Shown: one piece after another, positions 55,539 to 57,389 of the stretch
How the letters are laid out: the number at the start of each line of letters is the position of its first letter
Position numbering within the stretch: the stretch's first letter is position 1
Assembly: GCF_014127105.1 (NCBI RefSeq)
Contig: NZ_CP059902.1
Span: 1,397,001-1,461,000, forward strand
Reading direction: 5' to 3'
Length of the DNA stretch: 64,000 nt
Source: Devosia sp. MC521
GTDB taxonomy: Bacteria; Pseudomonadota; Alphaproteobacteria; Rhizobiales; Devosiaceae
The notes under the pieces: generated by a model
Told to the model about the DNA's origin: nothing
The model's input: only the letters and a program-made list of their open reading frames with translations
Databases searched by the model: none
Made by a program: the position numbers and the translations under genes

Positions 55539-55615
55539 TGGTGATCCCGGCGGGATTCGAACCCACGACCCCAGGATTAGGAATCCTGTGCTCTATCCTG
55601 CTGAGCTACGGGACC
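55539..55615 (-). tRNA. tRNA-Arg (CCT)
   Basis: A 77-nt tRNA with encoded CCA. GGTCCCG pairs with CGGGATC (one G-T), the anticodon loop TTCCTAA gives CCT (Arg), and the T arm contains GGGTTCGAATCCC. It reads the AGG codon. Confidence 0.96.
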
Positions 55616-55692: not shown

Positions 55693-56193
55693 ATGACCAA
55701 ACCTGCGCAAATTCTATTTTATCCAGACCCTCGTTTCGCACAACGCGCGGCGCCGCGCCCTGTCGACACCGCGTTGATCGCGATCGGCGAAACGTTGAAG
55801 GCCACAGCTGCCGAGCATCGGGCCTATGGATTGGCCGCCGTGCATATTGGCGATGTGGCTCCGGTGGTTGTGGTGAGCTTTGGCTCGGTTGAGGGCAGGG
55901 ACTATCGGCTTCTCTACAATCCGGAGGTGCTGAGCGCTTCTGATGAGGCGGAGCTCGGTACCGAGGGTTCGGTGTCGCTGCCGGGTATTGAGGTGGAGGT
56001 GGTGCGCCCCATCTCATGCGTCATTGGCTATGACAATGCGGCCGGTGTGCGCCACGAAACGGCGCTCTCAGGCTTTGAAGCCCGCGTTGCCATGCATGAG
56101 ATTGATCAAATGAACGGCATTTTCTTCCTCGATAAGGTCTCGCGGCTCAAGCGGGATGCGGCTTTGCGGCGATTTAAGAAGCTGCAACGCTGA
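55693..56193 (+). CDS. Peptide deformylase homologue with altered active site
   Basis: A 166-residue protein with the peptide deformylase fold and length. Deformylases remove the N-terminal formyl group using a metal held by one Cys and two His. Here motif 1 is GLAAVHI (His51 for the usual Gln), motif 2 is EGSVS (Ser93 for the Cys ligand) and motif 3 is HEIDQ (Gln139 for the second His ligand); His135 and catalytic Glu136 remain. With two of three metal ligands changed it is unlikely to act as a normal deformylase. The reading frame is intact. It lies upstream of prfB. Confidence 0.85.
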   Translation: MTKPAQILFYPDPRFAQRAAPRPVDTALIAIGETLKATAAEHRAYGLAAVHIGDVAPVVVVSFGSVEGRDYRLLYNPEVLSASDEAELGTEGSVSLPGIEVEVVRPISCVIGYDNAAGVRHETALSGFEARVAMHEIDQMNGIFFLDKVSRLKRDAALRRFKKLQR

Positions 56194-56266: not shown

Positions 56267-57389
56267 ATGCGCGCGGAAATCGAAAAGACCGTCGCCGAAA
56301 TCAAGCAGGTCCTAAGCCTGCTGAGGAGGCATCTTTGACTGGGATACAGCAGAACTCCGTCTCGATGCGCTAACAGCGCAAACTGAATCACCAGATTTTT
56401 GGAACGACCCCGCCAAGGCGCGCGTCACCATGCGCGAGCGCGATGAGCTCGATGTCGCGGTGAAGGGTGTCAAGGAACTCGAAGCCGGCATTCGCGACAA
56501 TGTCGAGCTGATCGAAATGGGCGAAATGGAAGGCGATGCGGATATTATCCGTGACGCTGAAAACGCCCTGCTCGAGCTTAAGGTTTCTGCTCGCCGGACG
56601 CAGATTGAAACCCTGCTGTCAGGCGAAGTCGACGCCAACGATTGCTATGTGGAAATCCACTCCGGCGCTGGCGGCACTGAAAGCCAGGACTGGGCGAACA
56701 TCCTGTTGCGCATGTACACGCGCTGGGCTGAACGTCGTAAGTTCAAGGTTGAAGTCATCGAAATGCACGATGGCGAAGAAGCTGGGATCAAATCGGCAAC
56801 GATTATGATCAAGGGCCACAACGCCTATGGGTGGATGAAGACGGAGTCTGGCGTTCATCGTCTGGTCCGCATCAGCCCTTATGACTCCGCTGCGCGTCGC
56901 CATACGAGCTTTTCGAGCTGCTGGGTTTACCCAGTGGTCGACGACAATATCGATATTGAAATTCGTGAAAGCGACCTCAAGGTCGATACCTATCGTGCAT
57001 CGGGCGCCGGCGGTCAGCACGTTAACACCACGGACTCGGCAATCCGTATTACCCACGTGCCATCCGGCATCATTGTGGCGTGTCAGCAAGAACGGAGCCA
57101 GCACAAGAACCGTGCGACGGCGATGAACATGCTCAAGGCGCGTCTTTATGAGCAGGAATTGCAGAAGCGCGAAGAAGCGGCGAACGCTCAGGCGGCCAGC
57201 AAGACCGATATCGGTTGGGGGCACCAGATCCGCTCTTACGTCATGCAGCCCTATCAGATGGTCAAGGATCTGCGCACCGGCGTCGAAAGCGGCCAGCCGG
57301 ATGTGGTTCTGGACGGCGACGTTGACAAGTTCATGGAAGCCGCCTTGGCGCAGCGCGTTGGCGTTGCGACTGACGTGACCGCTGACTAA
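56267..57389 (+). CDS. prfB: Peptide chain release factor 2 (programmed +1 frameshift)
   Basis: RF2 ends translation at UGA and UAA. Codons 1-23 are read from 56267 to 56335, the in-frame TGA at 56336-56338 is bypassed by a +1 shift, and reading resumes at 56337 to 57389, giving 373 residues. GGQ, which triggers peptide release, is at about 248-250 (GAGGQHVNT). The stop-codon tripeptide is SPY at about 203-205 rather than SPF. The frameshift lets low RF2 levels raise its own synthesis. A strong terminator follows. Confidence 0.96.
56324..56339 (+). promoter_or_regulatory. prfB programmed frameshift site
   Basis: AGGAGG (56324-56329), CAT, then CTT TGA C. An internal Shine-Dalgarno sequence 3 nt before the slippery CTT, followed by the TGA stop, is the classical RF2 autoregulation signal. 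Slippage of the CTT tRNA by one base restores the main frame. Confidence 0.97.

Follow-up and report, generated by a model that had tools for sequence, protein, structure and literature searches.

A conserved family of peptide deformylase paralogues with jointly replaced active-site residues in Devosia and other bacteria

Accessory peptide deformylases (PDFs) with altered motifs are already known, and the consulted parts of two papers describe them under the name of type 3 PDFs (PMC12690207, PMC5591237). These proteins, which comprise PDFs of archaea and trypanosomatids and the accessory PDFs of S. aureus and S. pneumoniae, are reported there to be weak, inactive or conditionally active. They are set apart, by description, by changes in motifs I and II, and a coordinated set of Gln-to-His, Cys-to-Ser and His-to-Gln exchanges goes unmentioned for them in those parts of PMC12690207 and PMC5591237. 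The canonical type 1 enzyme, represented by E. coli Def, carries a Gln in motif I, a Cys in motif II and an HExxH sequence in motif III, and its C-terminal helix is described as the element that docks E. coli PDF on the ribosome (PMC12690207, in the part consulted). A third group is gathered by the NCBI model NF009484 (PRK12846.1-5), with hits here in Rhizobium, Mycoplana, Methylobacterium, Acetobacter and Camelimonas. This equivalog model names its proteins 'peptide deformylase' though they lack two ligands, the Cys and one His, that all sequences read as canonical possess. No account of their coordinated signature was found in the open-licence papers that make up the literature searched.

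Here we describe a gene of Devosia sp. MC521 that lies in a window of 64,000 nucleotides (the whole stretch of DNA that was analysed). It encodes a PDF paralogue from a conserved family that has exchanged Gln51, Cys93 and His139 together for His, Ser and Gln (H-S-Q), has kept His135 and Glu136, and is maintained beside a normal def. In this family Met35, Leu94 and Leu144 have mostly become Leu, Val and Phe. The coordinates are collected in Table 1.

The three motifs of the window protein read GLAAVHIG, EGSVS and HEIDQ. The canonical def, which the sequence-only reading of this DNA had proposed to look for elsewhere, is located at C1:347804-348262 of the same single-contig 3.78-Mb genome; its product reads GLAAPQIG, EGCLS and QHELDH and is 27% identical to the window protein. 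Ser93 in EGSVS, Gln139 in HEIDQ, His51, the kept Glu136 and the intact frame, all noticed in that earlier reading, were confirmed when the codons were read, and the same residues occur in all 64 Devosia-type loci picked by similarity alone. Its account of lost ligands is correct in that two metal ligands are replaced and incomplete in that three motif residues changed in concert: His51 had been noticed, but its joint switch with Ser93 and Gln139 had been missed. Compared with a catalytic PDF such as E. coli Def, the window protein has the PF01327 sequence, the PDF fold, the motif spacing, the catalytic Glu136, the first His of motif III and the C-terminal basic helix; unlike it, the paralogue lacks the motif I Gln, the motif II ligand Cys and the second His of motif III, which have become His, Ser and Gln. 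As an accessory PDF substituted in motifs I and II, it also fits the description of type 3. Chance or sequencing error is ruled out as the source of the altered residues, since these are common to the orthologues.

Table 1. Features of the deformylase-like gene and its neighbours (window positions)
Feature	Position	Strand	Evidence or remark
PDF-like paralogue, H-S-Q type, 166 aa	55693..56193	+	intact frame of 166 codons, ATG at 55693 and stop TGA at 56191-56193 (sequence reading); PF01327 107.8 bits, cut-off 22.8 (profile search)
Leu35 (canonical Met), co-switched position	55795..55797	+	group comparison
His51, CAT, in place of motif I Gln	55843-55845	+	codon read and comparison with canonical
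Ser93, TCG, in place of motif II metal ligand Cys	55969-55971	+	codon read and comparison
Val94 (canonical Leu), co-switched position	55972..55974	+	group comparison
His135-Glu136, kept first His of HExxH and catalytic Glu	56095..56100	+	His135 CAT 56095-56097; Glu136 GAG 56098-56100
Gln139, CAA, in place of last His of HExxH	56107-56109	+	codon read and comparison
Phe144 (canonical Leu), co-switched position	56122..56124	+	group comparison
C-terminal basic helix, residues 151-165	56143..56187	+	helix in structure model; charge as in canonical PDFs
tRNA-Arg(CCT), divergent neighbour	55539-55615	-	tRNA call
prfB (release factor 2)	56267..57389	+	start read by eye; 73 bases past paralogue stop

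An AlphaFold2 model of the window protein (61 rows, pLDDT 96.6) has the complete PDF fold. The 50 matches that Foldseek listed are all PDFs, with E. coli PDF 4az4 at TM 0.90 among them. A profile search of the PDB gave 42 distinct sequences at E up to 1e-25, the best at 165.6 bits, and all are named deformylase except 3uwa; no solved structure of a close H-S-Q relative is evident among these 42, for the best of which the motifs were read. The charge of the C-terminal tail has a median of +6 in the Devosia type, the alphaproteobacterial H-S-Q proteins and the alphaproteobacterial canonical PDFs alike. The tails of clostridial H-S-Q proteins are short.

To what extent are the replaced residues fixed? 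Two sets of loci were picked without regard to motifs, by similarity or by model score, and positions 51, 93, 135, 136 and 139 read H-S-H-E-Q in 64 of 64 Devosia-type loci (similarity above 100 bits) and in 60 of 60 loci chosen by NF009484 score. Among 122 full-length distinct sequences obtained in this motif-blind manner, only 12 of the 166 columns are invariant, namely G46, H51, P77, E91, G92, S93, R105, H135, E136, Q139, G142 and R154. Positions 35, 94 and 144 also set both H-S-Q groups apart from canonical PDFs with little overlap, a comparison that is circular at 51, 93, 135, 136 and 139, where rows were picked by motif, and not at these three positions. Position 98 differs from the alphaproteobacterial canonical PDFs and not from the clostridial ones. 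In the group comparison, as in those of charge and identity, the canonical sequences do not include L065, L066 and L068. A wider collection of 274 distinct PDF frames comprises 153 H-S-H-E-Q, 112 Q-C-H-E-H, two Q-S-H-Q-H, one M-S-H-E-Y, one H-S-H-E-H, one frame without residue 51 and four fragments or frames overlapping them; these come from 328 loci, many fetched for being H-S-Q, and are not population frequencies. The H-S-H-E-H protein, L143, is the sole intact intermediate among the 274. In a sample drawn by PF01327 only, from 12 multi-PDF genomes (36 matches, 30 loci fetched), which illustrates other accessory copies, none of the 32 distinct rows is H-S-Q: 28 are Q-C-H-E-H, two Q-S-H-Q-H and one M-S-H-E-Y, and one is without residue 51.

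Orthologues with a match above 100 bits are present in 67 of the 121 genomes of the family, and all other matches listed score 84.1 bits or less. A second PDF match accompanies the orthologue in 66 of the 67, and the 20 of these that were fetched are all canonical. The one genome without it, G047, is a draft of 94% completeness, and there the PF01327 search found the paralogue only. One of the 54 genomes without a match above 100 bits, G094, has fragments of the gene; elsewhere, roughly 40 residues are missing from the start of L127, and the frame of L129 is broken. Frameshifts or relaxed selection in relatives had been named by the sequence-only reading as observations that would speak against a retained function, and three relatives are indeed broken or truncated, but the 64 Devosia-type loci keep the full set of residues. 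Conserved segments of the Devosia alignment, used as queries against species genomes, led to 75 loci, with Pseudochrobactrum, Camelimonas, Rhizobium, Mycoplana, Methylobacterium and Acetobacter among the genera, plus three Bacillota. Because the search patterns spanned residues 89-98 and 135-144, a match at Ser93 or Gln139 was preselected; His51 lies outside the patterns and is found in all 75 rows with that position, the window protein being one of the 75. All eight non-Devosia genomes tested have a canonical PDF.

NF009484 shares with the Devosia type the H/S/HE..Q signature and a common clade. However, the window protein reaches only 122 bits against a cut-off of 190, and five alphaproteobacterial relatives score 230.5-259.2. 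The Devosia type is a divergent branch, with 30-40% identity to the NF009484 type, Pro57, Arg131 and often a prfB neighbour. NF006670 (PRK09218) was rejected as the model of the H-S-Q family: none of 398 genomes of the phylum exceeds its cut-off, the window protein and its relatives lie far below it, and NF009484 fits. Beyond the Devosia family the trait is a minority one, with NF009484 over its cut-off in 51 of 297 genomes of the order, in 11 of 289 of the class and in no control genome (14 in each search). Every one of the 51 order hits was read and is H-S-Q; the class hits over the cut-off number 12, of which 11 are H-S-Q and one is canonical. NF009484 thus mixes two active-site types and is not fully specific. 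The protein at G148:C1:2383110-2383607 (L265), the second hit of G148, is a canonical deformylase with EGCLS and HEIDH that scores 197.5 bits on this model. In a clostridial-class sample of 196 genomes, 30 matches were read and consist of the query genome's own H-S-Q protein and 29 canonical PDFs. A plasmid collection holds relatives in 14 records at E up to 1e-30; seven are annotated, all as peptide deformylase, S. meliloti pSymB among them. One H-S-Q protein, L266 (genome G749), has an in-frame EAGDA tandem-repeat insertion before motif II.

The region downstream of the paralogue contains prfB, whose +1 frameshift site CTTTGAC (56333-56339) follows an AGGAGG (whole signal 56324-56339), and the two genes are presumably co-transcribed. 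Both prfB and tRNA-Arg adjoin the window gene, as the earlier reading had stressed in placing it within translation genes, but the prfB context is a feature of the Devosia type. Of the 74 loci tested, 46 of 58 of the Devosia type carry a same-strand prfB downstream (33 directly, 13 at 0.6 to 4.6 kb, measured to RF2 codon 90), as against none of 16 others. Seven Devosia-type loci are without prfB although more than 4.9 kb of flank is available, and in another five the flanks are shorter. Of 40 Devosia-type loci scanned, 15 have the tRNA-Arg immediately upstream. Neighbouring genes vary between the lineages that carry an H-S-Q paralogue. Searching the loci with an mgtE query placed that gene beside the H-S-Q gene in six of them (L134, L138, L181, L186, L191 and L199), all from Rhizobium, Mycoplana or genomes of one family code, and the H-S-Q relative on S. 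meliloti pSymB likewise adjoins mgtE. In the six loci and in L338, this magnesium transporter gene is transcribed away from the adjoining H-S-Q gene. The gene order in clostridial L147 (1952-7044) is priA, def, H-S-Q, fmt, and fmt is downstream of the H-S-Q gene in both L146 and L147. Peptide deformylase COG0242 also appears in a table of nodule-colonisation associations, in which the gene is not specified (PMC8407117, in the part consulted).

The proposed comparison of dN/dS among relatives was carried out by the Nei-Gojobori method, the early run without fragments, canonical rows and L018. For omega, only the nine most closely related of 210 genome pairs were used, which are not independent of each other; it is 0.08-0.21 for the paralogue and 0.02-0.10 for def, that is, 1.4 to 7.5 times higher for the paralogue. 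Over the 210 pairs the median dN of the paralogue is 2.5-fold that of def, so the paralogue evolves faster. Distant pairs give an apparent omega of up to 0.7 for the paralogue and 0.4 for def (in the pairs listed), which we attribute to saturation of this simple estimate. Selection on the paralogue is purifying and weaker than on def. Intact frames, low omega, fixed residues and the same set of replacements on separate branches give good support to the earlier proposal that a non-canonical function is retained.

As to the nature of this function, we lean, tentatively, towards a rebuilt active site free of cysteine that probably still removes a small acyl group, formyl or another, from the N-terminus. 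The replacement is coordinated, the catalytic Glu is untouched and the set is fixed in proteins with as little as 30% identity to the window protein, and for these reasons a rebuilt catalytic site is favoured over simple loss. Loss of two of the three known metal ligands normally abolishes PDF activity, which counts against a rebuilt site. Further points against it are the 54 family genomes without a match above 100 bits, the minority status of the trait elsewhere, the faster evolution than that of def, the varying neighbours and the small clostridial sample of three loci. In the favoured reading, His51 may serve as a new ligand or in proton transfer, His135 together with Gln139 and/or Ser93 would complete the cysteine-free site, and Glu136 would still activate water. 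The paralogue could dock at the ribosome exit by its basic helix and might remove formyl or acyl groups from a subset of chains, or do so when oxidation or a lack of metal impairs the canonical Fe2+/Cys site. The loss of an oxidisable Cys agrees with the oxidative-stress idea but is no proof of it; for type 3 PDFs, the authors of PMC12690207 suggest, in the part consulted, that other cofactors may be used under oxidative stress.

The main rival is a catalytically dead pseudo-deformylase, close to the ribosome or nascent-chain binding proposed in the earlier reading: by its retained fold and basic helix it would attach to the ribosome exit or to nascent chains with formyl-Met, and regulate or protect chains without hydrolysis. 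Two replaced metal ligands, a C-terminal charge equal to the canonical one, the prfB neighbourhood of many Devosia-type loci and the place between def and fmt in L147 speak for it; the short tails of the clostridial proteins speak against it. Moreover, a dead binder should have no need for a fixed Glu136, His135 and specifically His51, which are constant across all 122 full-length motif-blind members, and we regard this explanation as unlikely, if still a serious one. Were the site dead, these proteins would constitute a pseudo-deformylase family under selection in many Alphaproteobacteria. Were it rebuilt, they would represent a natural experiment, perhaps a repeated one, on the change of a ligand set in a metallohydrolase, and an accessory PDF expected to differ from the antibiotic target in its use of metal and its response to inhibitors.

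In a tree of 62 sampled proteins without columns 51, 93 and 139, the alphaproteobacterial and Devosia H-S-Q proteins form one clade (SH-aLRT 100), and NF009484-type and Devosia-type proteins share one clade with SH-aLRT values of 99 and 100. L146 and L147 group with the tandem def of L147 (SH-aLRT 92) among clostridial def proteins, and L143 is placed elsewhere among these. L146 and L147 have all six replacements; L143 has four, with His139 kept. On trees without the trait columns the H/S state requires three changes. A single clade of all H/S rows is rejected at p-AU 0.0005, at 5e-6 with all motif blocks removed and at 0.0007 in an earlier 72-row set (81 rows minus nine long or odd ones), values that come from quick tree searches on 135-174 columns with three clostridial H/S rows only. 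The simplest reading of these trees is that the H/S state would have been gained separately.

Alternatively, there could be one ancient H-S-Q family, the clostridial branch being a tree artefact, a product of gene conversion involving the tandem def, or the trace of an early gain with reversals. The clostridial H/S genes are few (three loci, two of them beside def), the alignments short, the branches long and the trees quick. The group submitted to the AU test was defined by the trait, but was tested after the first tree had been seen, and rejection of one clade leaves room for one gain with reversals. However, the test rejects one clade in three runs, motif-block removal included, and L146 and L147 cluster with clostridial def outside the trait columns, so that we consider a single ancient family distinctly unlikely. 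The fuller proposal, that a six-residue change centred on His51, Ser93 and Gln139 took place at least twice independently and created a cysteine-free hydrolase for N-terminal formyl or acyl groups, with a relocated metal or a Ser-His-Glu site, now databased as an ordinary deformylase, seems to us quite possible, though less likely than not.

A metal-free hydrolase, in which Ser93 would act as the nucleophile with His51 (or His135) and Glu136, would amount to a metallo-to-serine conversion in the PDF fold. Every member read combines Ser93, His51 and Glu136, on the separate branches too, but Ser for Cys is also the mildest change by which a ligand can be lost, and the fixation of Gln139 is left unexplained; we find this improbable. 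Slow decay of an accessory PDF under relaxed constraint, like the weak or inactive type 3 PDFs, might account for the family genomes without a match, for the damage in G094, L127 and L129 and for an omega above that of def, but is very improbable given that omega in the closest pairs is still low, that the altered residues are fixed and that the same substitutions appear on another branch.

Other accessory PDFs depart from the canonical motifs in different ways. L276 and L273 (genomes G187 and G219) are tandem clusters of three PDFs in which one copy has EASPN or EGSPN and HQIDH. Like the H-S-Q paralogue these extra copies are accessory and without the motif II Cys; unlike it, they keep Gln51 and both His of motif III and lose the catalytic Glu (Q-S-H-Q-H), which is a different degeneration. 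At 1480-1992 of L293 (genome G553) there is an accessory PDF with Met51, Ser93 and HEMDY. L065, L066 and L068 (G115, G089 and G015) represent another type of Devosia PDF, which has the canonical ligands with GLAAVQIG and HEIDHTNG and is 35-39% identical to the window protein.
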